From NCBI RefSeq assembly GCF_003076455.1, contig NZ_CP020918.1:806001-870000 (forward strand): a stretch of 64,000 nucleotides of DNA, written 5' to 3'. Made by a program: the position numbers and the translations under genes. This DNA is from Flavobacterium faecale (GTDB taxonomy: Bacteria > Bacteroidota > Bacteroidia > Flavobacteriales > Flavobacteriaceae). The number at the start of each line of letters is the position of its first letter. Positions within the stretch are counted from its first letter, which is position 1. A model generated the notes under the pieces. That model had not been told where the DNA came from, did no database searches, and was given only the letters and a program-made list of their open reading frames with translations. Of the stretch, positions 4,062-22,403 are shown in pieces.

Positions 4062-4104
4062 TTGGTACTCCAAATTGGTTACCCAATCTGCGATACCAAA
4101 TATA
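4062..4104 (-). promoter_or_regulatory. Tandem operator and -7 element upstream of lectin-like gene
   Basis: Two 12-bp near-palindromes, TTGGTACTCCAA and TTGGTTACCCAA, start exactly 13 bp apart. A minus-strand TATATTTG (-7 match) lies 10 bases further upstream. A degenerate third box overlaps the -7. The boxes end 31 bases before the ATG. Same architecture as at the lyase and susC promoters. Confidence 0.7.
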
Positions 4105-4219
4105 ATGCAATTAATTAATAATAAAAAAATGTTATTCGTAAAAAAGATGAATTTATCGACTAGATTGAATAATTTGTTGTATTTACTTACTATTCTACAT
4201 ATGACAGTAGAGGAACATC

Positions 4220-7024
4220 TTAATTTTTTATCATAATCTTCTTGTTTCCAACTGTTTTATTAAATTCATTTATTAATTTCAAGAAGTAAATGCCCGAAGG
4301 AAGGGTAGCAACATCAATTGAATAATATGCCTCACCTTGCTCTTTAAGATTTTCATTTAGAAGTATTTGTCCATTACTATTGGTCAAAATAGCTTTAGTA
4401 GCAGTGACACCCTCTTTTGGATACACATACATTACTTGTGAAGCGGGATTTGGGTACAGTAAAAAAGCACTATTTAATACGTTATCTTTAACCTTTAAAG
4501 CAGCTGCTTTGCCATAGAATTCAATTTCAGATATGGTTGTGTACGAGTTCGAATTATTTCCTCGTCCTACGATTTTTACATATCTCGCTACATTGGTAAA
4601 GGAGTAGCTTTCGAAAGTAGTTGAGGCTGCAGCAGCACTTTGAATACGCACAGGAGTAGAATAGTCAATTCCGTCTTCAGAAAATTGAATATCATAAAAA
4701 TACCATTTTGTAGTCGATCCAGTTGTTGCAATTTTTATAGTCTCTAGTGTAAATATAGATCCTAGATCATACACAATTACACCCGTATCTTGATTATCTG
4801 ACCATCTTGTTGCTGCATTTTTATCCAACGAGTTAATGGCATAATTAAAATTAGTACCTCCTACTTGTTCAGAAGTAGCTGTTGCAGTAACAGGATTTCC
4901 ATTGCTACCAGAATTAATTAGCACAGCTCCTGAAGGCACACCTTCTTGAACAATACTCACATTTACAGGCGATAAGCCAGCACCTGTCACCGAAATTGTT
5001 CCCGTTCTAGAAGTTGTTGCAGTATTGGAGCTTGCTGTAACTGTAATCATACCGTTACTATTACCCGAATTTGTGTTTATTGAAAACCAACTCGCAGTAC
5101 CAACGCTGGCTGTCCAACTTACATTGGACGTAATTGTTGCCGTTTTTACCTCTCCTGCTGCACTAAAATTTGAAACAGAAGACACAGTCAAAACAGGCCC
5201 GACTTGTGTAATTGTAATCATTACAGGATCTACTCCTTGTCCCGTTACTGTTAAAATCCCTGTTCTTGTAGCTCCTGACGGATTGGCTGTAGCGGTAATC
5301 CCAATGGAACTATTACCCAAACCTGAATTTGCACTAAGCGCTAGCCAACTACTATCTACAGTAGCAGACCATGCCAAATTGGTAGTAACTGTAGTTGTTT
5401 TGGTTTCTCCAGATAATTCAAAACTTGTTACAGGAGACAATGTAAGAGGCACATTTTCATAAGCCAATGGACCAACCGTTGCTGCAGTCATAGGCAAATA
5501 ACGCACTGACGCTGTACTATATTGATCAGCTCCTGGATTACTTGTAGCAGGTCTTGATTGCCCCTCTATATCCTCATCATTTACTATAGCATTTGTATTG
5601 GAATATAATGGAGTAGTGCTAGAAGACTTCCAAGTACTTGTTGCAGCATCAAAAACCAAATTAGGATTTTCGACAATAACCTCATTAGGACTTGACAAGG
5701 TCGTGGTGATTCCGCCAGAGATTAATGTGGCAGGAGAAACCGGGTACATTAAATTATTGGACCAAGTTATGGCACTCCCTTGGTCTTTACCATCAACGAT
5801 TTTTACAAGACTATTTCGGTCACTTGTGATTAAATTATTAGCAATCGTAATTTGATTAACGGGTTTGCTATACGCTCCGTTGTTGCTAAAACCTATTTCG
5901 ATACCTTGATCATTGTTCACCAAAGTATTATAAGCAATTACCACACGTTCTGCTCTAAAATGATTACTCAACGTATTATTATTTGGACCATCAATGTCGT
6001 CACCTTGCGTAATTGTTATAGGAGCATCCCACTTGGTACCATTTAATCCTTCAAAATAATTATTGATAATCACATGATCTGTTCCATACACACGCATACC
6101 ACCTGTATACAACTTTGTCGTTCCGTCGGGAGCCAAGCCAATTGGACGTCCATTTCCAAAAAAGTAATTCCCCTCTGCCCTATTACGATTTCCATGTCTA
6201 AAAGACAAAGTCCCATAATTTCCTCTAAACGTGTTGTGTCTTATAATATTATCACAGGATTTAACGGATAGCACTTCAGGGTCCCCATCACAATTTTCGA
6301 ATAAATTATATTCTACCGTAGTAAAACCACTAGATTTGGACATGTCACTCCAGCCTACACGTACGGACTCCTGCTCATTGGTAGCTCTTGGAGAATTATC
6401 TTTAAAATGATTGTGATCAATTACATCATATTGGGACTGTACTTTGGCATTGGTTCCATCAATCGTAATATAATGTCCTGGTAGATTTTTTTCTTTAAAA
6501 ATATTATGATCAACACGATTGTGGTGACTCAAAAATTGATACGGTAGAGTGACATCATCATAAACACCTCCAATATAAACCCATTTTACCGATGAGACGC
6601 CGTCAGAAATAGTAAGTTTGAATATATTTCTAGTTACTCGTACATTATTACTTCCTTCAAACTTAACAATGGTACTTTTACCAGTACAGTTAAAATTAAA
6701 GCCTTCAAGAATAATATTTGCTGACTTTTTAAAGGAGAAATAAGAATCTCCCGTAAAAGTAACCCCTCCAACCGATTGTGGTTTAATGATAATTGGCTTA
6801 TCTGCCGTTGCGTTTACCGAGGTCGTTGTCACTTTGAAACCTGAATAACTTCCATCTTTTACCAAAAAGGTTCCGCCTGTGGATCCAGCGGCATTTACAG
6901 CCGTTTGCAAAGTACTCGCACTAGTGTATACCGTTTGTGCGACTGAAACATTTAAAAATAGAATAGCAGTTAAAACCAAAATTGGTTTCAACAAACTACT
7001 CTTCGTCAAAGTAATTTTTTTCAT
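4220..7024 (-). CDS. PL6-family alginate lyase with BACON, discoidin and T9SS sorting domains
   Basis: 934 residues when started at the ATG that gives 'MKKITLTKSS', which is followed directly by a signal peptide ending 'VSVAQ'. An in-frame ATG 66 bases upstream would add 22 non-signal residues and lies within the operator, so I reject it. Residues ~30-530 form a right-handed beta-helix with PL6 signatures: a Lys in 'EVLSVKSCDN' (K255) and an Arg in 'SFRHGNRN' (R276), the places of the catalytic Lys/Arg pair known in PL6 lyases. Two BACON-like domains (~535-710), an F5/8 type C (discoidin) domain (~715-850) and a T9SS sorting domain follow. It probably cuts alginate outside the cell; whether it is endo- or exolytic cannot be read from the sequence. 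Confidence 0.9.
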   Translation of the reverse strand: MKKITLTKSSLLKPILVLTAILFLNVSVAQTVYTSASTLQTAVNAAGSTGGTFLVKDGSYSGFKVTTTSVNATADKPIIIKPQSVGGVTFTGDSYFSFKKSANIILEGFNFNCTGKSTIVKFEGSNNVRVTRNIFKLTISDGVSSVKWVYIGGVYDDVTLPYQFLSHHNRVDHNIFKEKNLPGHYITIDGTNAKVQSQYDVIDHNHFKDNSPRATNEQESVRVGWSDMSKSSGFTTVEYNLFENCDGDPEVLSVKSCDNIIRHNTFRGNYGTLSFRHGNRNRAEGNYFFGNGRPIGLAPDGTTKLYTGGMRVYGTDHVIINNYFEGLNGTKWDAPITITQGDDIDGPNNNTLSNHFRAERVVIAYNTLVNNDQGIEIGFSNNGAYSKPVNQITIANNLITSDRNSLVKIVDGKDQGSAITWSNNLMYPVSPATLISGGITTTLSSPNEVIVENPNLVFDAATSTWKSSSTTPLYSNTNAIVNDEDIEGQSRPATSNPGADQYSTASVRYLPMTAATVGPLAYENVPLTLSPVTSFELSGETKTTTVTTNLAWSATVDSSWLALSANSGLGNSSIGITATANPSGATRTGILTVTGQGVDPVMITITQVGPVLTVSSVSNFSAAGEVKTATITSNVSWTASVGTASWFSINTNSGNSNGMITVTASSNTATTSRTGTISVTGAGLSPVNVSIVQEGVPSGAVLINSGSNGNPVTATATSEQVGGTNFNYAINSLDKNAATRWSDNQDTGVIVYDLGSIFTLETIKIATTGSTTKWYFYDIQFSEDGIDYSTPVRIQSAAAASTTFESYSFTNVARYVKIVGRGNNSNSYTTISEIEFYGKAAALKVKDNVLNSAFLLYPNPASQVMYVYPKEGVTATKAILTNSNGQILLNENLKEQGEAYYSIDVATLPSGIYFLKLINEFNKTVGNKKIMIKN

Positions 7025-7054: not shown

Positions 7055-7095
7055 TTGGATAACCATTTTGGTTAACCAATAATAATTCAAATATA
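7055..7095 (-). promoter_or_regulatory. Tandem operator and -7 element upstream of PL6 lyase
   Basis: TTGGATAACCAT and the perfect palindrome TTGGTTAACCAA start 13 bp apart, followed upstream by TATATTTG on the minus strand. A weaker box (TTGGTTAGCAAG) lies on the gene-proximal side. The boxes end 31 bases before the chosen ATG, the same distance as at the lectin-like gene. Confidence 0.75.
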
Positions 7096-8299: not shown

Positions 8300-9838
8300 T
8301 TAATACCCTGCATTTTGCGGTAATAAATTTGGATTTCTTGTCAACTCATTAGCTGGTAAAGGGAACAAATATTTTCTTGCTGTTACGAAAGCAGGTTTTG
8401 CACCTTCTAGTCCAGAAGCACTAAAAACCGTTGGACCTAAATCTCTTCTTGCAATATCATACCATCTTGAAAACTCAAAAGCCAATTCCCATTTACGATC
8501 TTCTAGAACCAAAGTTCTCATTGCATCTTTTGATAATGTTGTAATATCAGCTGGAAAAACACTAGCTGTACCACCTGCAGCTCCTGCTCTCGCTCTTGCT
8601 CTAACTCTATTTGTCCAAGTAACAGCATCAGCAGTCTGACCTACTTCGTTTGCTGCTTCAGCTCCAATAAGCAATACTTCGGCATAACGCATCATTAGAT
8701 AATTACTATTTGTAGTTCTACCATTACCATCTGCAGCAGGACCTGCTTTTCGAGTATATTTCGCAATATGGGGACGGTTATCACCAGCAGTATAATAAGT
8801 TGTGAATTTGGTATACGGTTGTCTCAATCCTTTGAATACTCCTGTCGCATCAAAGCTCACTGCTCTTCTATAATCTAAAGAGTTCCAAGTGTTGTAAACA
8901 TTTAGAGAAGGTACTAAGATCGACCATCCTCCACTGTATCCATACTGCTCATCGGCTCTAATACCTGTAAAAGCAGCCAAGTAATCACGACCTTGATCTC
9001 CATCAGACTTTCCAATAAAATCGATTACAAATATTGGCTCCTTTGAAGCATCTGTTTTAGAATAGTCAAATAAGTTTTGAAAATCAGTTTCTAAGCCTAA
9101 ATTATACGTCCCCTCTTTTGAAATAATATCCTTTGCTTCATCATAAGCAAGTTGAAAGTTAGCAGGATCATATTGCCCCATAGTCAAATACACGGAAGCC
9201 AAAAATGAACTTGCAGCTGATTTTGCAGGGATTGCTCTTGTGATTTGAGTATCTGGCAACCATTCTTTTGCAAATTTTAAATCTGCAATGATATTTTTGT
9301 AAACCTCAGCAACTGAAGTTTTACTAATTGATCCTGCAGCTTGTACATCTGTAACTGGTTTGTCAATATATGGAATCGCTCCAAATTGCCTTACCAGATG
9401 GTAATAAACAAAAGCTCTAATAAAATAGGCCTGTGCCACCACTTTATTTTTTGCAGCTGCATCTGCAGTTACATAACTCGCACCGTCAATAGCTTGATTG
9501 GCTGCACCAATAATTTGGTAACATTTTGGCCAATAGACTGCAATATTTGCATTATCTGCTAATATTCCAACATTACTAAACTGTACACGCTCAGGATTGG
9601 TAACATTGACATTCAAATCTACCATATCACTAGCCAACATTAATGACATTGACATTTCTCTTGACATGAAATACCTATGTTCCATGTGAGCGTAAGCACC
9701 ATTTATAGCAATTTGAACTTTATCTATGGAAGTAAAGAACGAAGAAGGTGTTAATAATCCAACTGGTTGTTCTTCTAAATCAGAACAGCCTATCATGGAC
9801 ATTCCAATTAAAACGAATATATATTTAAATTTTTTCAT
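8300..9838 (-). CDS. susD: SusD/RagB-family surface glycan-binding lipoprotein
   Basis: 512 residues. A lipoprotein signal peptide ends in 'MIGC' with the modified Cys at residue ~18 followed by 'SDLEEQP', an acidic stretch as in Bacteroidota surface lipoproteins. The rest is the helical SusD fold, with TPR-like pairs such as 'AYFIRAFVYYHLVRQFG' and the conserved near-C-terminal 'NYLMMRYAEVLLIGAEAAN'. It caps the SusC pore and binds alginate oligosaccharides (inferred from context). The gene follows susC with a 24-base gap, so the two form one transcript. Confidence 0.95.
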   Translation of the reverse strand: MKKFKYIFVLIGMSMIGCSDLEEQPVGLLTPSSFFTSIDKVQIAINGAYAHMEHRYFMSREMSMSLMLASDMVDLNVNVTNPERVQFSNVGILADNANIAVYWPKCYQIIGAANQAIDGASYVTADAAAKNKVVAQAYFIRAFVYYHLVRQFGAIPYIDKPVTDVQAAGSISKTSVAEVYKNIIADLKFAKEWLPDTQITRAIPAKSAASSFLASVYLTMGQYDPANFQLAYDEAKDIISKEGTYNLGLETDFQNLFDYSKTDASKEPIFVIDFIGKSDGDQGRDYLAAFTGIRADEQYGYSGGWSILVPSLNVYNTWNSLDYRRAVSFDATGVFKGLRQPYTKFTTYYTAGDNRPHIAKYTRKAGPAADGNGRTTNSNYLMMRYAEVLLIGAEAANEVGQTADAVTWTNRVRARARAGAAGGTASVFPADITTLSKDAMRTLVLEDRKWELAFEFSRWYDIARRDLGPTVFSASGLEGAKPAFVTARKYLFPLPANELTRNPNLLPQNAGY

Positions 9839-9862: not shown

Positions 9863-12800
9863 TTAAAACTTCAAACTAGCACTAAAGTTAACTGATCTCA
9901 CTGTTGGGAAATTTCCAAAATCGAATCCTTTAGTAGAATTTGATGTCGATGTACTTCCTCCTCCAGAACCAAAATAACTTACCTCAGGATCTAAGCCAGA
10001 ATATTTTGTAAAAGTCAATAAGTTCTGCGCACTCAAAGTCAATCTTAAGCTTTCTACCCCCATTTTTTCAGTAAATTTTGAAGGAACGTTGTATCCTAAT
10101 GCAATATTTTTCAATCTAATATAACTTCCGTCTTCAACAAAACGAGATGAAATTTCTCTTCTATCAGCAACAACACGAGGAATGTTAGCATCTGTATTAG
10201 TAGGTGTCCAAGCATTTAACACATCCGTAAGTGCATTCGAGCTACCTCTAAACAATTGTGCTTTGGTCAAGTTAAACACATCACCTCCGTAAGAACCTTG
10301 GAAAAAGATATTCAAATCCCAATTTTTATAACTGAAGTTATTTGTGATACCCATATTCCAATCTGGATTTGGATTACCAATAATTTTTCTATCAGCAGTT
10401 GTAATCGATCCATCACCACTCACATCTGTAAACATAGGGTCACCTGCAACTCCACCAGCAGCTATAGCCAAACCTGTTGGCAATGTACCACCTTGATAAA
10501 CTCCTTGGTATTCTAAACCGTAGAATACACCTGCAGCTTCTCCTTCTCTCAAAATGTGTGTTCCTGAATTATTGCTAAAAAATCCTGGAGCAGCATTCAA
10601 AATCACATCTGTACCACCAATTAATTTTTCCACTTTGTTTTTATTTGTAGACCAGTTAAAATCTGTCGTCCATCTAAAATCATTGTTTGTGATATTCTTT
10701 GTATTTAATGAAATTTCAAAACCTTTATTGTTAATTTCACCAACGTTTCTAATACTAGCCAACGTTTGGAAACCTAAATATTGTGATTGACTGTTATCAG
10801 CCATTAATAAATCTTTCGTATTAATATTGTAATAATCTAATGAAAGCGACACTTTGTTATTCAACAAACCTAAATCCAAACCAAAGTTACTTTGATAAGA
10901 AGACTCCCATTTCAAGTTATCGTTTGCTGCTTGATCAGGTACAACTGCATTTACTGCTGCACCACCAAGACCTGCATAAATAGTAGATAATTTTGCCAAT
11001 GATTGGTAAGCAGAAATTGCTTGGTTACCTGTAACACCATAACTAGCTCTTAATTTCAAGTTCGAAATTGATTCGCTATCTTTCAAGAAGTCTTCATTCG
11101 AAACTTTCCATCCTAATGCTCCAGAAGGAAAGATTGCATATTTATGGTTTTTTGCAAAGTTTGAAGCTCCATCACGTCTTACCGTAGCAGTCAACAAATA
11201 TTTGTCGTTATAGTCATAATTTAATCTACCAAATTGAGATTCAATTTCTTGCTCAACAAATGAAGACGTTGGCAATACAGAAACAGAACTACCCGCTAAA
11301 TTAAAGTAAGAGAAACTATCATCAGTAAAACGTTGTGCTCCTGCAGAAAAACGTTCAGAACTTGTTTTTTGATACGAGTAACCCGCTAATAAGTTCAAAG
11401 TACCTTTTCCTATTTCTTTTTTATATGACAAATAACTCTCTGTTAATATATCTGTCTTTTTCAAATTAGAAATACTTGCTTTACCACCTGTTCCTCTACC
11501 AGCCGTAACCAATAATGTAGATGGTCTAAATGAACCTACAGTTGTATTTGTAGTACTGTATCCAAAAGTTGTTTTGAAAGTAAGATCTTTTATAATATCA
11601 TAATTAGCATATAAATTTGATCTACTAATATCCGTTTTTGTTGTATTTACTGCTTCAGTTGCAATTGCGTACGGATTATCAACTTCATCAGCAATATTAT
11701 CTGTAGTATTCAAACCTGTAACTGGATCTTTCACTCCGTAATCTGGTCTAAATCTAAACATAAGAGAGATCACATCATCACCACCACCATTTGCAGTTTC
11801 ACCTGTTGATTGTGTTGGAACACCATTTTTTGAAGACCTACTTGAAAAAAGGTTAAAACCTAATTTTAATTTGTCTGTAACCTGAGCATCAATGTTAGAT
11901 AAAAAAGTCATTCTCTCAAAATCCGAGTTGATGATAACACCGTCTTGTTTGAAATAATTTGCAGAAGCATAGAAGTTTACTTTTTCAGTACCTCCAGAAA
12001 AAGAGAATTGGTGATTTTGAGTACTTCCGCTTTTGTATAATAAATCTTGCCAGTCTGTATCTGCAGTTCCTGCAACAAAACTTGGGTTTGTTAATTTCTT
12101 GTAAGCAATAAATTGTTCTGCGTTTAACAAATCCAATCTGTTAGCTGTATTTTGAACAGAATAGCTACTATTCACCTCTACAGTTAATTTTCCGTTTCTA
12201 CCTTTCTTAGTCGTTACCATTACAACACCATTAGATCCTCTAGAACCATAAATAGCAGTTGCCGATGCATCTTTTAAAACTTCGATAGATTGAATATCAC
12301 TTGCTTGTGGCATTGACGCCCCAACAAATCCATCCACTACAATCAAAGGATCACTACCAGCACTGATAGAAGTGTTACCCCTAACCTTAATACTAATAGG
12401 AGCACCTGGCTCACCACCATTATTAGATTGAACAACTACACCTGCAGCACGTCCTTGCAAAGCTTGTGCAGCATCTGCAAGTGGAAAAGCGTTGATTTCT
12501 TCAGCTTTTATCGAAGATACCGAACCTGTGATGTCACTCTTTTTACGAGAACCATAACCCACAACAACTACTTCATCAAGTTGACTGTTATTTTCAACCA
12601 AAACAATATTCAAGGTCTTTTGATTGGTAATCGTCACAGATTGCATTTTATAACCTATGTATGAAAATTGAAGAACATCTCCTTTTTTAACATCAACTTG
12701 AAATTTACCATCAAAATCTGTAGATGAACCTTTAGTTGAATTGGCTATAATTACATTGGCTCCAGGAATTGGCATTTTACCTCCATCCATTATAGTACCG

Positions 12801-12883
12801 GACAATCGATACCCGCCCTGTGCAAATAATGAAATGTTGAATATCAACAGTAACATTAAAGTAAGTTTAGTTTTTAAATTCAT
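9863..12883 (-). CDS. susC: SusC/RagA-family TonB-dependent outer-membrane importer
   Basis: 1006 residues with a signal peptide ending 'SLFAQ'. Domains: a carboxypeptidase-regulatory-like domain (~22-105, 'GTIMDGGKMPIPGANVII'), a TonB box region 'DEVVVVGYGSRKKSDITG' (~105), a plug (~115-225, 'ALQGRAAGVVV', 'DPLIVVDGF', 'DASATAIYGSRGSNGVVMV'), then a 22-strand barrel ending in the aromatic 'SASLKF'. It imports oligosaccharides across the outer membrane with TonB/ExbBD energy. Substrate alginate is inferred from the flanking PL6/PL7/PL17 genes. A tandem operator overlaps the -7 element 133 bases upstream, leaving a long 5' leader. Confidence 0.96.
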   Translation of the reverse strand: MNLKTKLTLMLLLIFNISLFAQGGYRLSGTIMDGGKMPIPGANVIIANSTKGSSTDFDGKFQVDVKKGDVLQFSYIGYKMQSVTITNQKTLNIVLVENNSQLDEVVVVGYGSRKKSDITGSVSSIKAEEINAFPLADAAQALQGRAAGVVVQSNNGGEPGAPISIKVRGNTSISAGSDPLIVVDGFVGASMPQASDIQSIEVLKDASATAIYGSRGSNGVVMVTTKKGRNGKLTVEVNSSYSVQNTANRLDLLNAEQFIAYKKLTNPSFVAGTADTDWQDLLYKSGSTQNHQFSFSGGTEKVNFYASANYFKQDGVIINSDFERMTFLSNIDAQVTDKLKLGFNLFSSRSSKNGVPTQSTGETANGGGDDVISLMFRFRPDYGVKDPVTGLNTTDNIADEVDNPYAIATEAVNTTKTDISRSNLYANYDIIKDLTFKTTFGYSTTNTTVGSFRPSTLLVTAGRGTGGKASISNLKKTDILTESYLSYKKEIGKGTLNLLAGYSYQKTSSERFSAGAQRFTDDSFSYFNLAGSSVSVLPTSSFVEQEIESQFGRLNYDYNDKYLLTATVRRDGASNFAKNHKYAIFPSGALGWKVSNEDFLKDSESISNLKLRASYGVTGNQAISAYQSLAKLSTIYAGLGGAAVNAVVPDQAANDNLKWESSYQSNFGLDLGLLNNKVSLSLDYYNINTKDLLMADNSQSQYLGFQTLASIRNVGEINNKGFEISLNTKNITNNDFRWTTDFNWSTNKNKVEKLIGGTDVILNAAPGFFSNNSGTHILREGEAAGVFYGLEYQGVYQGGTLPTGLAIAAGGVAGDPMFTDVSGDGSITTADRKIIGNPNPDWNMGITNNFSYKNWDLNIFFQGSYGGDVFNLTKAQLFRGSSNALTDVLNAWTPTNTDANIPRVVADRREISSRFVEDGSYIRLKNIALGYNVPSKFTEKMGVESLRLTLSAQNLLTFTKYSGLDPEVSYFGSGGGSTSTSNSTKGFDFGNFPTVRSVNFSASLKF

Positions 12884-13015: not shown

Positions 13016-13045
13016 CTGGTTTTCCAATTTGGTTTTCCAAATATA
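13016..13045 (-). promoter_or_regulatory. Tandem operator overlapping -7 element of susC promoter
   Basis: Boxes CTGGTTTTCCAA and TTGGTTTTCCAA start 13 bp apart. Read on the minus strand, TATATTTG runs directly into the first box (TATATTTGGAAAACC). A bound repressor would cover the -7 element and transcription start. The ~100 bases between this site and the ATG hold no other recognisable signal. Confidence 0.75.
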
Positions 13046-13428: not shown

Positions 13429-14097
13429 TTACTTTCTAAGACTTTTTATAATTTCGATACATTCTCTAGTCAATGCTTCAATTTTTGCAATATCAAAAAC
13501 ACCGTTTGCATCTGCTTTTATTAATTTTGAACCTAATCCAACGCAAGTAACACCTGCATCAAACCAGCCCTTTAGGTTTTCTCTTGTTGGAGACACACCA
13601 CCTGTAGGCATGATCGATGTCCAAGGTTGAGGCCCTTTGATTCCGTTAATAAATTCTGGACCATAAATATCTCCAGGAAATAATTTTACAATTTCGCAAC
13701 CTAATTCTTCTGCTCTTGCTATCTCTGTAAGTGTACCACATCCAGGAGACCAAAGTACTTTACGACGATTACAAGCAATAGCAATATCTTCTCTTAAAAC
13801 TGGTGTTACAATAAAGTTGGCACCTAATTGCATGTATAAAGACGCAGAAGCAGCATCAGTCACCGATCCTACTCCTAGAATCATTCCTGGCAACTCTGCA
13901 ATTGCATATTTATTTAAAGCAGCAAAAATTTCGAAAGCAAAATCACCTCTACTAGTAAATTCTAGTAAACGTGCTCCACCATCGTAACATGCTTTCAATA
14001 CTTGTTTACTTACTTCAACATCTTTATGATAAAATAAAGGAACAATTCCTGTATCTTTCATTACTTGTGCTACTTCTATTCTTGTAAATTGAGCCAT
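13429..14097 (-). CDS. eda: KDPG/KHG aldolase
   Basis: Cleaves 2-keto-3-deoxy-6-phosphogluconate to pyruvate and glyceraldehyde-3-phosphate, the last step of the DEH branch. 222 residues from the ATG giving 'MAQFTRIEVAQ'. The ATG 60 bases upstream overlaps the kdgK coding end and gives a non-homologous N-terminus, so I set it aside. Class I aldolase features: 'LLEFTSRG' with the active-site Glu near residue 44, 'GVGSVTD', 'SPGCGTLTE', and the Schiff-base Lys in 'CEIVKLFPG' near 140, then the phosphate-binding 'MPTGGVSP'. It lies 13 bases after kdgK, so the two are co-transcribed. Confidence 0.95.
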   Translation of the reverse strand: MAQFTRIEVAQVMKDTGIVPLFYHKDVEVSKQVLKACYDGGARLLEFTSRGDFAFEIFAALNKYAIAELPGMILGVGSVTDAASASLYMQLGANFIVTPVLREDIAIACNRRKVLWSPGCGTLTEIARAEELGCEIVKLFPGDIYGPEFINGIKGPQPWTSIMPTGGVSPTRENLKGWFDAGVTCVGLGSKLIKADANGVFDIAKIEALTRECIEIIKSLRK

Positions 14098-14110
14098 AGT
14101 TTTTATATTT

Positions 14111-15133
14111 TTATCTTGAAACTTTTCCTGAAAAATCACCAGAAAGTAATTTTTCAATTTCTGGTTTGGTAACTAAATTGTAATCTCCTGAGATCGTGTG
14201 CTTCAAACAACAAGCAGCTACTGCAAAATTCAAAGCTCTTTGTTCGTCCAAAGGTTCTTCATTCAAGCCATAAATTAATCCACCCATGAATGCATCTCCA
14301 CTTCCTACACGATCAATTACTGGAGTCACCTCTTGAACAGCTGCATTGTACAATTTTTTTCCGTCATACATAACGCCACCTATACGCTGGTGTGATGCAC
14401 TCACAGAATAACGCAAAGTAGTTGCAACATATTTCAAATCAGGACACATTTTGAAAATAGTATCATAAAGAGAAGGAAGCAATTCTCCTTTCGTATAATC
14501 TGGGTCAACTTTGTCCAATCCAAGCATGAAGTAAGCAGTATCAATATCACCCAAAATAACGTGGCTGTATTTCAACATCTCTGGCATTACATCTTTTGGT
14601 TGAACACCGTAATTCCATAATTTTGCACGGTAATTTAAATCGGTAGAAATGGTTAATCCCATTTCGTGAGCGATTTTTATAGCTTCTAGACAAGCTTGAG
14701 TAGCACTTTCAGACAGAGCAGGTGTAATTCCGCTCCAATGAAACCAAGTTGCTCCTTTTAAAATCTCTCTCCAATTGATCTCCCCTACTTTCAAATCGGC
14801 CATAGAACTGTTTGCTCTATCGTAAATCACGTTGCTTGCACGCGTACTTGTTCCTGTTTCCAAAAAATAAATACCCAAACGATCACCACCAAACAATACG
14901 TTATCACAACCTACATCTAGCTTACGCATTTCTTTTAAAGCACTAATTCCTAATTCATTATTAGGTATCTTAGTTACATACTCTGCAGTCATACCATAAT
15001 TCGCCAATGATACCGCTACGTTAAATTCACCCCCACCATAAGTAGCTTTGAATGATTCTGCTTGAGAGAATCGCAAGTGCCTATCTGTCGATAAACGGAG
15101 TAAAATTTCACCAAAAGTGATTACTTTTTTCAT
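14111..15133 (-). CDS. kdgK: 2-keto-3-deoxygluconate kinase (PfkB family)
   Basis: Phosphorylates KDG to KDPG in the cytoplasm. 340 residues with the ribokinase/PfkB layout: N-terminal substrate site 'TYGGGEFNVAVSLANYG' near residue 32, and C-terminal signature 'DRVGSGDAFMGGLIYGL' near 283, where the Asp of GSGD is the catalytic base. Most PfkB kinases have GAGD there. It leads the two-gene operon with eda. The tandem alginate operator is absent upstream. Instead a -7-like TACTTTTG is followed at once by a hairpin plus U-run. Confidence 0.93.
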   Translation of the reverse strand: MKKVITFGEILLRLSTDRHLRFSQAESFKATYGGGEFNVAVSLANYGMTAEYVTKIPNNELGISALKEMRKLDVGCDNVLFGGDRLGIYFLETGTSTRASNVIYDRANSSMADLKVGEINWREILKGATWFHWSGITPALSESATQACLEAIKIAHEMGLTISTDLNYRAKLWNYGVQPKDVMPEMLKYSHVILGDIDTAYFMLGLDKVDPDYTKGELLPSLYDTIFKMCPDLKYVATTLRYSVSASHQRIGGVMYDGKKLYNAAVQEVTPVIDRVGSGDAFMGGLIYGLNEEPLDEQRALNFAVAACCLKHTISGDYNLVTKPEIEKLLSGDFSGKVSR

Positions 15134-15190
15134 CTTATTAAATTCCTAATTGATTACTACTACTTTAGCTGCGCCAAAAAAATATAAAAA

Positions 15191-15218
15191 AACCTTCAAT
15201 CGTTTTCGAAAGAAGGTT
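15191..15218 (-). terminator. Hairpin with U-run in the kdgK leader or end of the SDR transcript
   Basis: AACCTTC / GAAGGTT stem, possibly extended by an inner TCGTTTTCGA pairing, followed by seven T on the minus strand. It is about 270 bases past the SDR stop and about 60 bases before the kdgK ATG. It may end SDR transcription. A -7-like element immediately upstream also allows it to be a leader attenuator for kdgK. Confidence 0.6.
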
Positions 15219-15226
15219 CAAAAGTA
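15219..15226 (-). promoter_or_regulatory. Possible -7 element for kdgK-eda
   Basis: Minus strand TACTTTTG, an exact TAnnTTTG match, ending right before the hairpin described at 15191-15218. No convincing -33 box is visible. Confidence 0.4.
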
Positions 15227-15426
15227 ACTTTTTTTACGTTAAAACAGATAGTTTTTTTGACAAACAGCCATTATTTATCTGCATTTAACACTATATTTAA
15301 TTTAATTTGAAAGGCAAACATTAAAGCTAATCTACTAGCAAATTGAAAGATAGATCTCTTTCGATTAAGACAACAAGCTAAATTGCTATACATATTCACA
15401 CGAATACAAATATTTGTTAAATAACT
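15227..15426. other. Gene-free interval between SDR gene and kdgK promoter
   Basis: AT-rich; no ORF or alginate-type operator seen here. Confidence 0.6.
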
Positions 15427-15454
15427 CCAAATACGAACATTTGTTCCTATTTGG
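15427..15454 (-). repeat. 28-bp inverted repeat downstream of the SDR gene
   Basis: Two 14-nt halves, CCAAATACGAACAT and TTGTTCCTATTTGG, complementary at 12 of 14 positions, 35 bases after the SDR stop. On the minus strand no T-run follows, so it is more likely an mRNA 3' stem-loop or a protein site than a simple terminator. Confidence 0.5.
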
Positions 15455-15488
15455 ATTTTTTACAGCTTTCAAATAAAATAGAACTTTC

Positions 15489-16253
15489 TTAGATTCCTAA
15501 TGCTTGACCACCACCAATTTGAATAGTTTCTGCAGTGATGAAAGATGCATCTGCACTAGCCAAGAAAGCTACAACACCTGCAACTTCTTCTGGCTCACCT
15601 AATCTTCCTAGTAATACACTACTTTTCCAGGAAGCAAAAACTTCTGGTTTAGTTGCTTTAATTTGAGCGTGAAAAGGAGTATCGATAGTTCCAGGAGAAA
15701 CAGCGTTAACTCTAATTCCGTACTCAGCTAAATCTTTAGCAAGTGCTCTAGTGATCGATTGAACTCCACCTTTTGAAACTGCATAGATACCAGCTCCTGG
15801 TCCTGCACCGTTCCAAGCTGCGTTTGATGTATAGTTGATGATTGATGCATTCTCTCCTTTTTTCAAGAAAGGAATAGCTGCTCTTGATGCATAGAAAACA
15901 GAATCAAGGTTCAAAGCCATAACAAATTTATATTCTTCGTTTGTCATATCTTCAAATCTAGCTCTAACACCAATACCACCTGTATTGTTAACCAACACGT
16001 CGATTTTACCGAATTTTTCCCCAATTTTCGCAATATTAGCAGCAACAGCATCACCGTCAGTCATGTCAAAACCGTAATACTCAGCAGTAATTCCTTCAGC
16101 AGTAAGTTCAGCCAATTTTTCAGCTCCAGCTGCATCATCAATACCATTTAAAACAACAGTATATCCATCTTTCCCTAATCTTTTAGCTACTGCAAATCCT
16201 ATACCTCCAGTTGCACCTGTAATAACTGCAACTTTTCCTTCTACTTTACTCAT
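15489..16253 (-). CDS. SDR-family oxidoreductase, probable DEH reductase
   Basis: 254 residues, classical short-chain dehydrogenase. Cofactor motif 'TGATGGIG' near residue 13, 'NNTGG' near 90 (the usual NNAG), catalytic Tyr/Lys in 'YAVSKGG' near 157, and active-site Ser in 'INYTSNAAW' near 140. In alginate pathways such enzymes reduce 4-deoxy-L-erythro-5-hexoseulose uronate (DEH) to KDG with NAD(P)H. That role follows from its place between the transporter and kdgK, not from a diagnostic residue. It starts 41 bases after the transporter stop, so the two are probably co-transcribed. Confidence 0.85.
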   Translation of the reverse strand: MSKVEGKVAVITGATGGIGFAVAKRLGKDGYTVVLNGIDDAAGAEKLAELTAEGITAEYYGFDMTDGDAVAANIAKIGEKFGKIDVLVNNTGGIGVRARFEDMTNEEYKFVMALNLDSVFYASRAAIPFLKKGENASIINYTSNAAWNGAGPGAGIYAVSKGGVQSITRALAKDLAEYGIRVNAVSPGTIDTPFHAQIKATKPEVFASWKSSVLLGRLGEPEEVAGVVAFLASADASFITAETIQIGGGQALGI

Positions 16254-16294
16254 CTTTATCTTATTTAAATTGTTTGTTTATCTCTTTTGAATTA

Positions 16295-17755
16295 TTATAT
16301 TTTTTCGATTTTACCAATCGTTAAGAAAATTGCGATCAAAGACATTGGTACCAAAGCGGATAGCAATCCGAATAATAATGGCCAGCTCGAAATTTGTCCT
16401 GCAAATGATATAGCCAAAATGGTACCTAATACTGCCGAAGCTCCTCCTAAACCAGCTAACGAACCTACCGATTTACCACCGTGTAAATCACTTGGCAAAG
16501 TTTGAATATTGGTCATCATAAATTGAAAACCTCCCAATACAAATGCCATCAAGATTACTGCTAATGATGCATTAGGAACCATCACTGATGTTAAAATTGC
16601 AGGGACTACTACTGCTCCACCAATTAACATAGCCGTTTTACGGGCTCTATCTACAGTTGCTCCTCTACGGATTAAAAATCCTGAGAACCAACCACCGGCT
16701 ATACTTCCAACCATCGCACCTACATAAGGTACCCATGCAGAGAAAGCGAGCTCTTTAATATTCAAATTAAATTCCTCAACTAAGTACATTGGTAAAAATG
16801 TTACAAACATCCACCAAATTGGATCTAAAAAGAAACGACCCAAAATCACTGAATAATTCTTTTTGTTTGACAACAATTCTCCCCAAGTTTTGGCAACTTC
16901 CGTACTTACATTGTTCACTGTTTGGTCTCCCAAAATATATTCACGCTCTTCGTCTGTGATCCAAGAGTGTTCTTTTGGCCCTTTGGTGTTGATAATCAAC
17001 CATGGAATCAACCATGCAATTCCCAAAACCCCTACTACAACAAAAGTCATTTTCCAACCAATTGTCATGTATAAGGATAAAATAACAATTGGTGCCAAGA
17101 TAGAACCTATAGAAGCTGCGGCTCCAAATAAACCTTGTGCAAAAGCGCGTTCTTTTTGAGGAAACCATTCTGCATTACTTTTGGTTGCTCCAGGCCATGG
17201 ACCTGCTTCACCCAATCCTAACATCATTCTAAATCCTGTCAAAGAAACTTTACCTTGAGATAATGAAGTTAAAGCATCTGCTAGACCCCAAACTAGAACT
17301 GAAGCTACAAAACCGCGACGTGTTCCAATTTTATCATATAATTTACCCGAAAACAATTGACTAAAACCGTAGGCAATCATAAAGAAAATAGTAATTATTC
17401 CTAATTCGTCTTTAGCTTGCTTTGATGCTTCTTCAGCAGTAGCATTCTTATCTACAATTCCGAGTTCATAAGCGATACCTTGACGGTTCACTACTGTTTG
17501 ACCCTCGTCTTTGAAGTTCACCATATCCGCTTTTTGGATAAACTGCTCGCCTCTTTTGGTTACCAAAAGATAACTATTGTCTTTTGCTTGAAACTGCGCT
17601 TGATTTTCACTAGCACCAGCATCAATAGCATCAACCAATTTATATTCAATATTGGCAACCCACATGTAGTTCAGTGTTCCTCTGTCCAAATAGTTAATTA
17701 TGGTAATCAGCATAATTAAACTTACGATCCACCATCTTAATCCTTTTACTTTCAT
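16295..17755 (-). CDS. MFS transporter, ExuT-like anion:cation symporter, with large first-loop insertion
   Basis: 486 residues, about 50-60 longer than ordinary hexuronate transporters. TM1 (~8-28) carries the family motif 'NYLDRGTLNY'. A hydrophilic stretch of about 75 residues (~40-115, rich in Asp/Glu/Lys/Gln) then sits where TM1 and TM2 are normally joined by a short periplasmic loop. TM2 onwards is typical ('GLGEAGPWPGATKSNAEWFP' near 195). It probably imports the unsaturated monouronate or short oligomers across the inner membrane. First gene of the unit with the SDR. Confidence 0.88.
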   Translation of the reverse strand: MKVKGLRWWIVSLIMLITIINYLDRGTLNYMWVANIEYKLVDAIDAGASENQAQFQAKDNSYLLVTKRGEQFIQKADMVNFKDEGQTVVNRQGIAYELGIVDKNATAEEASKQAKDELGIITIFFMIAYGFSQLFSGKLYDKIGTRRGFVASVLVWGLADALTSLSQGKVSLTGFRMMLGLGEAGPWPGATKSNAEWFPQKERAFAQGLFGAAASIGSILAPIVILSLYMTIGWKMTFVVVGVLGIAWLIPWLIINTKGPKEHSWITDEEREYILGDQTVNNVSTEVAKTWGELLSNKKNYSVILGRFFLDPIWWMFVTFLPMYLVEEFNLNIKELAFSAWVPYVGAMVGSIAGGWFSGFLIRRGATVDRARKTAMLIGGAVVVPAILTSVMVPNASLAVILMAFVLGGFQFMMTNIQTLPSDLHGGKSVGSLAGLGGASAVLGTILAISFAGQISSWPLLFGLLSALVPMSLIAIFLTIGKIEKI

Positions 17756-17932: not shown

Positions 17933-18643
17933 TTATGAATGATAACAATACTCATACAAAGATTTGAAATGCTCCTTCATCTTTTGCTTTGCTAATTGCG
18001 GGTTTTGAGCAACGATTGCATCAAAAACCTCTTTATGCTCATTGATCCTATCCATTACATCATTTTCATTTTTATCACAAACATGATATTTTTCGAAATT
18101 GATTAAGATTTCAGGTGTAATGATCAACATCATATTATTAATGGTACTATTTCCACTTGCTTTTGCAATAGCCAAATGAAAAATTAAATCTTCCTGAACT
18201 GCATTTTCTCCACTTAATGCCTTTGCGGCATAGGCTTCTAGAGCAACTTTAATATCTTCAATATCTTCTTCTGTTCTTCTTGTTGCAGCTAGACGAACCG
18301 TTTTTAATTCGATTAAAATTCTAGTTTCCACTAATGATTTAAAATCAGACACGCCTAATCTCAAAATATCATCAATAATAGCGTTGATTGCTATTTTACC
18401 AATATTTGCTACAAAAGTTCCACTTTGTGGAATAGATTTCAAAATACCGTAAAATTCTAATTTTTGAATCGCTTCACGAACACTACTTCTACTAGCTTCG
18501 AATTTTTCAGAAAGCATTCTTTCAGATGGTAGTTTATCTTGTGGCTCTAAATTTTTATAATTGATATAATCCCTAATTTTACCAATGATAGCATTAAGCG
18601 ACTCTTTATTATTATCTTTTCTTGTGATTACTTCTAAATTCAT
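17933..18643 (-). CDS. GntR-family transcriptional regulator, FadR subfamily (candidate alginate repressor)
   Basis: 236 residues. N-terminal winged helix (~18-80: 'DKLPSERMLSEKFEASRSSV', 'GTFV' wing), then an all-helical FCD domain with likely metal/effector ligands ('EDLIFHLAIA' near 146, 'NEHKEVFDAI' near 200, 'MKEHFKSLYEY' near 222). It sits inside the alginate locus between the transporter and PL7 genes. FadR-type proteins bind TnGTnnnACnA-like palindromes, which the phased TTGGTnnnCCAA boxes fit. A GntR/FadR-family repressor (AusR) controlling alginate genes is known in Zobellia galactanivorans. A box 22 bases before its own ATG suggests autoregulation. The effector is likely a pathway intermediate such as KDG (inference). 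Confidence 0.92.
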   Translation of the reverse strand: MNLEVITRKDNNKESLNAIIGKIRDYINYKNLEPQDKLPSERMLSEKFEASRSSVREAIQKLEFYGILKSIPQSGTFVANIGKIAINAIIDDILRLGVSDFKSLVETRILIELKTVRLAATRRTEEDIEDIKVALEAYAAKALSGENAVQEDLIFHLAIAKASGNSTINNMMLIITPEILINFEKYHVCDKNENDVMDRINEHKEVFDAIVAQNPQLAKQKMKEHFKSLYEYCYHS

Positions 18644-18664: not shown

Positions 18665-18689
18665 CTGGTTAACCAGATTGGTTCGTAAA
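18665..18689 (-). promoter_or_regulatory. Operator upstream of the GntR regulator gene
   Basis: A perfect palindrome CTGGTTAACCAG, and 13 bp further a half-degenerate box TTGGTTCGTAAA. Only one box is intact here, unlike at the lyase promoters, which would fit weaker autoregulation. Confidence 0.65.
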
Positions 18690-18752: not shown

Positions 18753-19619
18753 TTAATGAGATGCTTTCAAAGAATATATCTTGACCTTAGCAAAAGAATC
18801 TGGGTTTTTTGATTGAAAATAGTTTCCTGCTTTGAAATAATTTTCAAATACTCCCCATTTTTTGATGCTAATATCATCATACACAAATGATTCTCCTCCA
18901 TTTAAAATCACCTCCAAACGACCATCTGAAACTTTAACCTCAAGAGTGAATCTATCAAAATCAACTTTTTCTTTAAAATCTCTACCTTCATCATCTCCCC
19001 ATGCGTCTGCAGGAAGGATATCTTTTAATGAAGCATTCTTGTCTTTTAATACCTTTGTTTTTACTCTAATTTTTCCTTTGTCCCAATAGATTTTTAATAT
19101 TGGAGCAGCATTATTATCTTTTTGACCTATTAGATCACGTTGTTCATCTGTCAATCGACCATGGATTTGTGCAACAATTATGCGGCTGTATTTACCATCA
19201 TCTTCTTTCGAAACCTCTTGGACTTTGAATGTTCCTTTTAAATAGCCACCTTGAGCAAATGTCCAGTTGGTATCTGAGTCACCAACCTTCATCGTTTCTC
19301 TAAGCTCCGATCTCGAATAATGACTGTTTGCAGTAGAGGTACCTGATGGAAAAGCATAGAAAACAATTGATTTGTCTTTTTTGTCTTCGTACATGTACTT
19401 ATTAGTTGCCTCATTTGTGGCAAAATCTAAAATTTCAGGGTATTTTAAATCCAAGGTTTTTCCTGGTTTATCAAGATTTTCTGCCGGTGTAGTTACTGTC
19501 CAATGTGATAAGTCAATGTTGGCTACATTCTTCGTGTCGTTTGCCTCTTGGCTATACCCTACAGTTGCGACTGCCATTGTAGCAAATAGAAGAGATTTTG
19601 AAAATTGTAATTTCATCAT
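18753..19619 (-). CDS. PL7-family alginate lyase
   Basis: 288 residues with a signal peptide (cleavage near 'VGYSQ'). All three PL7 motifs are present: 'RSELR' (103-107), 'QIH' (151-153) and 'YFKAGNYFQ' (261-269), which carry the catalytic Arg, Gln, His and Tyr. QIH rather than QVH is usually associated with acceptance of guluronate-containing substrate. The last motif reads NYFQ where NYNQ is more common. No T9SS domain follows, so it is secreted by Sec only or periplasmic. From memory, the length equals that of FlAlyA of Flavobacterium sp. UMI-01 (not checked). The second Met is an equally good start. A tandem operator precedes it. Confidence 0.95.
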   Translation of the reverse strand: MMKLQFSKSLLFATMAVATVGYSQEANDTKNVANIDLSHWTVTTPAENLDKPGKTLDLKYPEILDFATNEATNKYMYEDKKDKSIVFYAFPSGTSTANSHYSRSELRETMKVGDSDTNWTFAQGGYLKGTFKVQEVSKEDDGKYSRIIVAQIHGRLTDEQRDLIGQKDNNAAPILKIYWDKGKIRVKTKVLKDKNASLKDILPADAWGDDEGRDFKEKVDFDRFTLEVKVSDGRLEVILNGGESFVYDDISIKKWGVFENYFKAGNYFQSKNPDSFAKVKIYSLKASH

Positions 19620-19696
19620 TGTTACTTAGGTTATTGATTAGTCGTATCTGATTTGAAACCTGAAGACTTAAATCAGATATTTTTTATAACACCAGT

Positions 19697-19726
19697 TTGG
19701 TAAACCAATTTGGAGAACCAAATGTA
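19697..19726 (-). promoter_or_regulatory. Tandem operator overlapping -7 element of the PL7 promoter
   Basis: TTGGTAAACCAA and TTGGAGAACCAA start 13 bp apart. On the minus strand TACATTTG overlaps the distal box by three bases. The boxes end 78 bases before the ATG. Confidence 0.75.
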
Positions 19727-19853: not shown

Positions 19854-19898
19854 AAAAAAGTCTGCAAATTATTCCATTGAATATTTTGCAGACTTTTT
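19854..19898 (-). terminator. Terminator of the PL17 gene
   Basis: AGTCTGCAAA stem with TTTGCAGACT, a 16-nt AT-rich loop and A/T runs on both sides. It lies about 180 bases after the PL17 stop and upstream of the PL7 promoter. Confidence 0.75.
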
Positions 19899-20080
19899 CA
19901 TTTTTCTAATTATTGAACATTATTCTTATTTTTTAGAAAATTATATTGAATAACATTCAATTCACGTACACTATTTCGCCTTAAGAGTTCATGTAAATGG
20001 GTAACTAAAAGCTTTTTAATCGAAATCAACTTGCAAGATGAGTTGCTTCATGACATGCAATAATCCTCTGACTTAAAAAC

Positions 20081-22345
20081 TTACTTAATCAATGTACTGT
20101 AATGAGCTCCAACCCAACTATAGGTTTGATCTTTAACTGTCAATGTGTGTTGTGCTGTAGTCGAATTATCTTCTGTAGCTAGGATAAATAAACCAACTGA
20201 TCCATTAGTATTTTTAATTGCAACGGCTACATATTTTTCGTCTTCATATGCTTTTTCAACATTTGCAATTGCACTGAAAGCATTTACGGCATTCTCGGTC
20301 ACGGGGCTATAACTACCATGTGACTCAATAACGTTTACAAAAGTTGTCTTTTTTATGTTCTTTTTTCTAATAATAACCGAAGCGTCTCTTCTTAAATTAA
20401 AATTAGGATCGTTTGCTCCCAACCTAGCCAATATTAATTCGTCTCCCGCACTAGTCGCAGAAGTCATCGTGTAAAAACTACCATCATACAACCATGAAAA
20501 CTTTGTATTTGCTTCAGCTGCCACACCAAAACCTTCTTTCCATAAATGTTGGTAACCAAAAGCAGTACCAAGAGGCTCCAACGTTTTTGGGGACTCATAT
20601 TTAAAATTAGCCGTCATCATTTGACCCAAGTAGTTAAACGGTAAATCGTATTGATTGGCTGTTTTTGAATCCACCTGAAAAATATCCAACAACAATGGTT
20701 TTTCATATCCTTCTAAGTCCCATAAAACCATCGAACGTTGCATATGAGTACCTGGATAGGCATTATCCTCAATAGCACTTATAATTTGAACTTTTGGATT
20801 GTAAACGTCATACAAATATTTCTTTGAAGCGTATAGATTTCCTATTTCAAAGTCGCCTTTAAAATGCGAAGTTTCATTTTGGATAATGGTGTTGTGAGCG
20901 ATGGTTTGTTTTGCCCAAGTAGCATTTTCTTTTAAATAATTACCTCCCCCTTTTTGTTCGATATTTACAAAACGAGCCAAACCGTAATCCTGCAGTATTT
21001 CGTCGCTATTTTGATAATATGAAAATGATAATTTATCAAAATGACCATGACTAGACCCTTGAGCGGCATATTTCATCACCAAAGTCAATTCATTGTCTTT
21101 GATTTTATTTCGAATAATAGCCACACCACCTTCTTGCCCATCTGAACCATCAGATAAATCAATTGATTTTTTGATAAAAGGTTTTGTCAATTTATTTTTA
21201 ATTCCGAGTGCTACTGCCATACCTGAATTATCCAACTGCACGCGACCCTGCTTTTCTGCAATAGAAAGTAACGAAGGATCTCTACCATCATATAAATAAG
21301 CGATATCAACTGCTGAAACTAATTCTCTAGAGTAATACGACATTCCTTTTTGACCATCGTTCAAAGGAAAAAATTCTCCCGCAGAATTAGTCAAATTAAG
21401 CAAAGCATAAATCGATTTATTTAGTATTCCGTTTTTATACTCAAAAATTTTAAGTTCTGGTTTGGTGTTTTGTAATGCTTCTGCAAAAACCATAAAAGGG
21501 TACATTGCATATCTCTGATAATATGGTCCTTCATTATAATATCCATCTGGAGAAAAAGGTTCGTCAACATTCGCAAGAAAACCTGTTTTTTGTCCTGGTT
21601 TCTTAATTAATCCACCGTCATTATCTTTCATCCCTACAGGCAAGGTATCCTCTTTCAAGCCATGCAAAGCTCTATCCAACAATTCGTTATCATCCATAAC
21701 CAAGGCAATCATCCCCACAGCAACATTTCCCCATGTACTATGATTGTGCACTCTATTAAAGAATTGCGGAGAGCCAATGGAAATAAAATCAGCATATGGT
21801 TTGAACAATTCTTTTTCGATAATAGCTCTGTCTTTGGCTCCAATAAAATCATAGACACAGTCATAGGCTTGACTTACATAAACTAGCCAATTTGAATCAT
21901 TTAAGGCTTGCCAAAACAATTTTCCACGAGCATAAGAACGTTCTTGCGGGTGCAAAGGCAAGGTAGGATATAGTTTGGTATAAGCCATCAACATATCCTT
22001 TACATATACTGCATACTTTTTGTCTCCCAGAATTTGGTACAAAACACCTGCTTTTTGAATGATAAGCCAGTTTTTTTTATGTCTCTCATGCGTATATCCA
22101 CCTGAGAAATCTTTAGGAATTGGTACTTCGATGCCGTGCAAAATTTCGGCATCAACCTCTTTTTTCACCTCAGCTACTGAGGCATCAAAAAGTGGCACTG
22201 TACCCAATTTTGATCTAATTTCTTTTACTCCCTTTTGGGTTAAAACCAATCGTGGGTGCCCTTGCGCAATGCCGTTCTGACAAACCAACAAAACCAATCC
22301 CAACACAAATGTTCCTAACCAATTATTCTTTCTAGTATACGTCAT
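20081..22345 (-). CDS. PL17-family oligoalginate lyase (heparinase II/III superfamily)
   Basis: 754 residues with a signal peptide ending 'NGIAQ'. An N-terminal (alpha/alpha) barrel (~30-390) has 'NRVHNHSTWGN' with the Asn-His pair at 201-202 and 'SPDGYYNEGPYYQRYA' near 265-280, as in characterised PL17 exolyases. The C-terminal beta-sheet domain carries the heparinase II/III signature 'SSHGHFDKLSFSYY' near 430. Such enzymes release the monomer DEH from alginate oligomers, usually in the periplasm. It has no T9SS domain, which fits that location. First gene of the locus in transcription order, with its own operator. Confidence 0.94.
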   Translation of the reverse strand: MTYTRKNNWLGTFVLGLVLLVCQNGIAQGHPRLVLTQKGVKEIRSKLGTVPLFDASVAEVKKEVDAEILHGIEVPIPKDFSGGYTHERHKKNWLIIQKAGVLYQILGDKKYAVYVKDMLMAYTKLYPTLPLHPQERSYARGKLFWQALNDSNWLVYVSQAYDCVYDFIGAKDRAIIEKELFKPYADFISIGSPQFFNRVHNHSTWGNVAVGMIALVMDDNELLDRALHGLKEDTLPVGMKDNDGGLIKKPGQKTGFLANVDEPFSPDGYYNEGPYYQRYAMYPFMVFAEALQNTKPELKIFEYKNGILNKSIYALLNLTNSAGEFFPLNDGQKGMSYYSRELVSAVDIAYLYDGRDPSLLSIAEKQGRVQLDNSGMAVALGIKNKLTKPFIKKSIDLSDGSDGQEGGVAIIRNKIKDNELTLVMKYAAQGSSHGHFDKLSFSYYQNSDEILQDYGLARFVNIEQKGGGNYLKENATWAKQTIAHNTIIQNETSHFKGDFEIGNLYASKKYLYDVYNPKVQIISAIEDNAYPGTHMQRSMVLWDLEGYEKPLLLDIFQVDSKTANQYDLPFNYLGQMMTANFKYESPKTLEPLGTAFGYQHLWKEGFGVAAEANTKFSWLYDGSFYTMTSATSAGDELILARLGANDPNFNLRRDASVIIRKKNIKKTTFVNVIESHGSYSPVTENAVNAFSAIANVEKAYEDEKYVAVAIKNTNGSVGLFILATEDNSTTAQHTLTVKDQTYSWVGAHYSTLIK

Positions 22346-22373
22346 AAATAATACATTTAACCAATTTACATTT

Positions 22374-22403
22374 TTGGTTTACCAATTTGGTTCTCCAAAT
22401 ATA
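22374..22403 (-). promoter_or_regulatory. Tandem operator overlapping -7 element of the PL17 promoter
   Basis: Perfect palindrome TTGGTTTACCAA (one mismatch in the core) and TTGGTTCTCCAA start 13 bp apart. Minus-strand TATATTTG runs into the distal box, as at susC. The boxes end 29 bases before the ATG. Confidence 0.78.

Follow-up and report, generated by a model that had tools for sequence, protein, structure and literature searches.

Why do the promoters of the alginate locus of Flavobacterium faecale carry a short palindrome in two copies whose starts are exactly 13 bp apart, and which protein would bind there? The question was addressed in a stretch of 64,000 nucleotides (hereafter the window; positions 806,001 to 870,000 of contig NZ_CP020918.1, assembly GCF_003076455.1), which carries an alginate polysaccharide utilization locus (PUL) with a gntR gene encoded inside it, beside lyases and SusC/D. 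In the reading adopted here, to which a probability of about 0.85 is given, the sites are operators at which an AusR-type GntR/FCD repressor would keep the alginate regulon off, and contact between its dimers would set the spacing. The arrays themselves, their fixed step, their anchoring at the -7 promoter element and their association with the GntR protein are directly visible in the compared sequences.

Boxes were scored in the window by their match to TTGG....CCAA (eight symmetric positions), allowing one mismatch per box, and pairs were counted at spacings of 1 to 60. Five pairs had a spacing of 13 (Table 1), the remaining ones being four 1-bp self-overlaps, one pair at 46 and one at 47; in 200 dinucleotide shuffles of the window, 13-bp pairs had a mean of 0.01 and a maximum of 1. 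A chance origin of the arrays is ruled out by these shuffles and by the reversed-pattern controls given below. The symmetric consensus of the box is TTGGTnnACCAA, a 12-bp palindrome in which GT and AC are separated by two bases. A preliminary description of the window had assigned the box to the TnGTnnnACnA pattern, which does not fit since it has 3 nt at this place, and the 3-nt-centre class of FadR-subfamily sites is thus ruled out by the 2-nt centre of the consensus. The six site coordinates of that description were all correct, and its two boxes 13 bp apart were found at five of the sites but not at gntR, where one palindrome (CTGGTTAACCAG) is accompanied by an intact half-site, which reads ACCAA in gene orientation. 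This site is missing from the genome scan with three mismatches allowed, and gntR is probably autoregulated through this weaker, one-and-a-half operator. The occasional third box was recovered as well, as a degenerate copy in register with the -7 element at the gene for a secreted protein with a type IX secretion system (T9SS) tail, and as three boxes in 47 of the 165 box runs of related loci.

The 25-bp double pattern was searched in the whole genome (a single contig of 4.62 Mb) with up to three mismatches, using the reversed pattern as a control, and gave 14 + 17 matches against 3 + 4. Matches with at most two mismatches fall at nine distinct places, five in the window and four outside; the genes that follow them encode five lyases, two SusC proteins, a TIM-barrel/heparinase pair and the T9SS-tail protein. 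A scatter of matches away from uronate genes, which the preliminary description had named as the outcome that would contradict it, is ruled out by the genes behind these nine places. A 3-mismatch match at 3840155 precedes another susC/susD pair; gene annotation covers the nine places and this one, and nine other 3-mismatch matches stand besides, for a control total of 7. Pairs of exact half-sites, counted over the whole genome at spacings of 12 to 42, number four, each at 13. A LacI-family regulator gene (L009:7819-8862) adjoins the unlinked polysaccharide lyase family 6 (PL6)-like gene that has a double operator, and because of this neighbourhood that locus may have two regulators.

Co-occurrence of operator and GntR protein was assessed in 299 Flavobacteriaceae genomes from 236 genera (F. 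faecale included; the family is known from the named loci described below), using an E value of at most 1e-30 for the protein and one mismatch for the double box. GntR was present in 74 genomes, 73 of which had at least one double box and 70 at least two, against 21 and 1, respectively, of the 225 genomes without it. Double-box matches averaged 3.9 per genome with GntR and 0.10 without, and the reversed control gave 0.08 in both groups. In F. faecale, the GntR of the alginate locus carries the only FCD match of the genome, and a search of solved-structure sequences with this protein gave 25 matches, including PdhR, FadR and NanR entries. The preliminary proposal that the local GntR/FadR-type protein, a relative of AusR, binds the operators is thus supported by the genome matches, the sole FCD protein and the family co-occurrence; because of this co-occurrence, of the single FCD protein and of the alginate genes behind the sites, an AusR-type alginate regulon is predicted.

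Spacing was measured in 80 named GntR loci (the best 80 of 459; 1.5 Mb), with GntR identities of 66-89%; Maribacter, Cellulophaga and Polaribacter are represented among these 80, and Zobellia is not. Distinct pairs (one box exact, the other with at most one mismatch, spacings 1-70) numbered 116 at 13 bp, 44 at 26 bp, 2 at 39 bp and one each at 18 and 21 bp, so that 162 of 164 were spaced by 13, 26 or 39 bp. A tally from every exact box gave 155, 64 and 2 at these three spacings and again 1 and 1 at 18 and 21 bp, for an expectation of 0.3 per spacing. The palindrome TTGG....CCAA occurs 216 times in these loci, and eleven control palindromes 4-48 times. A single box made up 58 of the runs, two boxes another 58, three boxes 47 and four boxes 2. 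Open reading frames contain 41 of the 58 singles but none of the 107 longer runs, and the single boxes look largely like chance occurrences. The gene downstream of 106 arrays was susC-like (57), PL17 (13), gntR (12), PL6 (7), PL7 (6), or, for one array each, a T9SS, major facilitator superfamily (MFS) or RraA gene. At least three boxes were found at 39 of 57 susC arrays versus 10 of 50 for all others. Arrays have two boxes in F. faecale and two to four in its relatives, in exact 13-bp steps, and those of the relatives mostly begin within the -7 element and then run downstream.

The motif TAnnTTTG stands exactly 5 bases ahead of the first box, in gene orientation, in 93 of 104 related arrays, and the TTG of the operator is therefore the end of the -7 element. 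Five of the 11 F. faecale operators have this offset (susC, PL7, PL17, PL6b and TIM/heparinase). The overlap of the distal box with TAnnTTTG previously noted at susC, PL7 and PL17 corresponds to it, and a -7 element within about 10 bases, noted at the PL6 and T9SS-tail (formerly lectin-like) genes, is also found there, with gaps of 8 and 10 bases. The -18 offset at the T9SS-tail gene would fit a decayed first box in register. On the promoter map of F. johnsoniae, the -7 element spans T-12 to G-5 (excerpts of PMC6847099); with this map applied to the -5 offset, the three boxes would extend over about -7 to +5 (box 1), +7 to +18 (box 2) and +20 to +31 (box 3).

A phylum-wide search (395 genomes, 13 with a match) found GntR relatives with 44-49% identity in two further families. 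In a second family (f5), 42 of 150 genomes had a GntR relative (E value of at most 1e-25). Core pairs, in which both boxes keep TTGGTnnACCAA, were counted there at spacings of 12-32: 26 were at 15 bp, 13 at 16 bp and one each at 14, 27, 30 and 31 bp, i.e. 39 of 43 at 15 or 16 bp, and none at 13 bp in the 150 genomes. They were present in 26 of the 42 genomes with GntR versus 1 of the 108 without. In 21 f5 loci, examined around gntR or a pattern match, 19 pairs were at 15 bp, 9 at 16 bp, none at 13 bp and 12 at 27-54 bp; the same scoring gave 107 pairs at 13 bp, 24 at 26 bp and nothing else in the Flavobacteriaceae set. The 23 listed f5 arrays precede gntR (18), susC-like (4) and PL7-like (1) genes, and 21 of them retain the -7 fusion. 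Repeats of the box at 15/16 bp were noted at L175:10336, L177:9826 and in 17 further second-family loci among L210-L228. In the genome G329 of family f4, two single boxes lie 138 bp apart near gntR (L176:9474 and 9612), and no array was found near this gene.

A tree of 43 proteins places 20 of the 21 Flavobacteriaceae rows, among them the diverged copies, in a single supported group (100/99), the exception being a long-branch row (L173). The second-family rows do not form one group: a weak root split separates 16 of the 20 from the other 4, which join the Flavobacteriaceae side (support 64/87). The Flavobacteriaceae group also contains the protein of G778, a genome placed in f5 that carries a Flavobacteriaceae-type GntR (69%) and two 13-bp arrays on its gntR contig (L230:1062 and 10850). 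This genome is fragmented (310 contigs, 3% contamination), and its GntR contig possibly results from transfer or misbinning; a spacing tied to host lineage only would be weakened by G778, whose contig may be misbinned and whose gntR promoter has just one box. A second GntR of the Flavobacteriaceae genome G184 (35% identical) has two single boxes 171 bp apart upstream, with no bearing on spacing, and is labelled as 13-bp in the tree because another array shares its locus.

Four other explanations of the arrays were weighed. Boxes bound independently, with no dimer contact and with 13 bp as the closest packing of 12-bp sites between the -7 element and the leader, are unlikely. The boxes of the Flavobacteriaceae do abut, with a 1-bp linker, and the arrays are anchored at the -7 element; such packing would however permit longer steps, whereas exact core boxes 14-24 bp apart are absent from the 299 family genomes, and f5 has 15-16 bp with the same box. 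It is very improbable that the dimer is placed on the outward-facing CCAAnTTGG, the double box being then one site with two flanking half-sites. This sequence is itself a 9-bp palindrome, and extra half-boxes 7-12 nt from the centre are reported at FadR-subfamily sites (excerpts of PMC4494728), but the f5 linker grows to 3-4 bp and a lone inward-facing box stands in the gntR promoter of G778. Because the f5 linker lengthens while the inward-facing box keeps its length, TTGGTnnACCAA is taken as the conserved unit.

Little credit can be given to another regulator binding the arrays (a further PUL regulator or, for instance, the LacI-family protein encoded next to the distant PL6 gene), GntR merely sharing the locus. 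A LacI-type gene does adjoin one site and linkage to GntR is by itself no proof of binding, but the arrays co-occur with GntR in the 299 genomes, they precede gntR itself in both families (12 of 106 and 18 of the 23 listed), and the box fits the TKGT/ACMA 2-nt class of FadR-subfamily GntR and UxuR (excerpts of PMC4494728). Arrays are by nature tandem repeats, but a 13-bp step that is a by-product of tandem 13-mer duplication and not of spacing selection can be practically dismissed, as boxes within an array share their half-sites but not their four central bases or their linker, off-step core pairs at 14-24 bp are absent, and array positions are tied to the -7 element.

Several points weigh against the arrays as -7-anchored GntR operators with a spacing set by contact. 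A double box is present in 21 of the 225 Flavobacteriaceae genomes without GntR (20 with one, G201 with two), and the GntR-positive genome G094 was unmatched in the double-box scan, yet has a 13-bp triple array beside its gntR, the product of which has diverged (50% identity). The co-occurrence counts overstate independence and their significance is inflated, because relatives share ancestry. For eight of the 106 arrays, the gene downstream had no match among 20 reference proteins. Among the 104 related arrays, TAnnTTTG was not found in 9 and was elsewhere in 2; only five of the 11 F. faecale operators are at -5, four have the -7 element 16-18 bases upstream, and it was not found at gntR or susC2. 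In f5, two 13-bp TTGG....CCAA pairs without the core were found, both in GntR-less genomes, and 15 and 16 bp are both present, sometimes within one array, so that the f5 dimer contact would need flexibility.

For the AusR-type repressor, the following mechanism is proposed. One dimer would bind each box; the dimer on box 1 would exclude sigma/RNA polymerase from the -7 element, and those on the following boxes would contact this dimer and bind with cooperativity, so that repression would be tight and switch-like until an unsaturated uronate or a later alginate-derived intermediate releases the repressor. Contact between neighbouring dimers may determine the spacing, and because the step would reflect this contact, it would be particular to the repressor clade (13 bp in the Flavobacteriaceae, 15-16 bp in f5). 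The nearly side-by-side binding previously suggested is not retained: a step of 13 bp is 1.24 turns, which would rotate each dimer by about 86 degrees relative to the next, away from a common face (154 degrees for 15 bp and 189 for 16 bp, at 10.5 bp per turn). The chances appear even that AusR-type repressors form a short spiral of contacting dimers, with a step specified by the clade and an unchanged box and -7 fusion; the 13-bp arrays of G778, found with a Flavobacteriaceae-type repressor, agree with what a spiral would predict, misbinning being possible. The first ~16 residues of GntR differ between the Flavobacteriaceae and f5 and are candidates for the dimer contact, without being proof of anything.

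AusR of Zobellia galactanivorans itself has an FCD domain. The F. faecale GntR likewise combines a GntR winged helix-turn-helix with an FCD effector domain. That a GntR/FadR-type repressor of alginate genes is known in Zobellia, as stated in the preliminary description, was confirmed in excerpts of PMC7874173 and PMC8286568. According to excerpts of these papers and of PMC8073546, AusR is a GntR-family repressor of an alginate system organised in two operons and isolated genes. Its operators are described in single, double and triple copies at promoters (PMC7874173, excerpts), and the doubled operator was therefore already known; F. faecale similarly has one to three copies at alginate promoters, unlinked ones included. 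From AusR (same excerpts of PMC7874173 and PMC8286568) we infer binding, effector and repression for the F. faecale protein. Added here, from sequence comparison, are the 2-base GT-AC gap, the 13/26/39-bp spacing, the fixed -7 offset and the 15-16 bp of f5; the literature searched, which consisted of partial texts and did not include the primary AusR paper (Dudek et al. 2020), was not found to mention the strictness of the step, the different step of another family or the constant -7 fusion.

E. coli NanR, also a GntR-type regulator and matched by the profile of the F. faecale GntR family, is the closest precedent for a repeated operator occupied by several dimers of this type. Excerpts of PMC8012715 describe several NanR dimers close together on (GGTATA)3 with a defined spacing, a binding weakened when spacers were lengthened by six nucleotides, and a cooperativity that needs an N-terminal extension of 32 residues. 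On that description, NanR repeats GGTATA units whereas the F. faecale boxes are full palindromes, TTGGTnnACCAA, and the extension differs from the F. faecale protein, whose Pfam GntR match begins at residue 18. We infer from the invariant spacing only that several dimers may bind cooperatively in the manner of NanR. The box resembles the TKGT-N2-ACMA palindrome of FadR-subfamily sites with a 2-nt centre (GntR, UxuR, PrpR; excerpts of PMC4494728). As described in these excerpts, FadR-subfamily sites are single palindromes, double sites in divergons, or have weaker extra half-boxes; the excerpts contain no mention of arrays like those of F. faecale, with full palindromes repeated at a fixed short step.

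Coordinates are collected in Table 1, where the PL6 and PL17 labels are interpretations of Pfam matches (Chondroitinas_B; Hepar_II_III_C + Alginate_lyase). Genes for a 2-keto-3-deoxy-6-phosphogluconate (KDPG) aldolase, a 2-keto-3-deoxygluconate (KDG)-type kinase, a short-chain dehydrogenase/reductase (SDR) and an MFS transporter round out the alginate locus of lyases, susC/susD, gntR and T9SS-tail gene, and no box with at most one mismatch was found in the four upstream stretches scanned before them. The listed aldolase and kinase frames (window 13429-15133) overlap by 47 bp, which may not be real because TTG was taken as the aldolase start codon and the match to its family begins at residue 21. 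A DUF1800 + DUF1501 (T9SS tail) gene pair on the opposite strand (window 22625-26097) adjoins the locus.

Table 1. Operators, -7 elements and genes of the alginate locus (window positions), and operators outside the window (genome-scan positions).
Feature	Position	Strand	Remark
Double operator, upstream of T9SS-tail secreted protein gene	4062..4086	-	TTGGTACTCCAA-A-TTGGTTACCCAA, 0 mismatches on + strand
Degenerate third box	4088..4099	-	TTGGTATCGCAG (gene orientation), left half intact, right lost; 13-bp register, overlaps -7
Double operator, upstream of PL6/chondroitinase-B-like lyase	7055..7079	-	1 mismatch
Double operator, susC	13016..13040	-	1 mismatch on + strand
One-and-a-half operator, upstream of gntR	18665..18689	-	CTGGTTAACCAG + half-site
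Double operator, PL7 lyase	19697..19721	-	0 mismatches, gene orientation
Double operator, PL17 lyase	22374..22398	-	0 mismatches on + strand, 1 in gene orientation
-7 element, T9SS-tail gene	4097..4104	-	TATATTTG; 18 bases before operator, gene orientation
-7 element, PL6 gene	7088..7095	-	TATATTTG; 16 bases before operator
-7 element fused to first susC box	13038..13045	-	TATATTTG; offset -5
-7 element fused to PL7 operator	19719..19726	-	TACATTTG; offset -5
-7 element fused to PL17 operator	22396..22403	-	TATATTTG; offset -5
T9SS-tail secreted protein gene	2991-4031	-	T9SS tail
PL6-type lyase	4220..7024	-	934 aa from ATG at 7024; Chondroitinas_B, BACON, T9SS tail
susD	8300..9838	-	Pfam SusD_RagB
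susC	9863..12883	-	TIGR04056, E 2.4e-265
Pathway genes: KDPG aldolase, KDG-type kinase, SDR, MFS	13429..17755	-	no double operator in front
gntR, GntR + FCD regulator (AusR-type)	17933..18643	-	236 aa; Pfam GntR 8.3e-16, FCD 4e-24
PL7 alginate lyase	18753..19619	-	Pfam Alginate_lyase2
PL17-type alginate lyase	20081..22345	-	Pfam Hepar_II_III_C + Alginate_lyase
Operator outside the window	29100		PL7 with F5/8C domain
Operator outside the window	204818		second susC/susD/PKD/PL7 cluster
Operator outside the window	1195261		PL6-like gene with divergent RraA-like gene
Operator outside the window	2953073		TIM-barrel/heparinase-II pair

The arrays give a clean signature for the prediction of alginate regulons from genome sequence, unlinked loci included. 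Families that share the box but differ in its step offer a ready natural experiment on how repressor contact would set operator spacing, and a spiral of contacting dimers, if true, would make spacing a second, evolvable specificity code beside base sequence.

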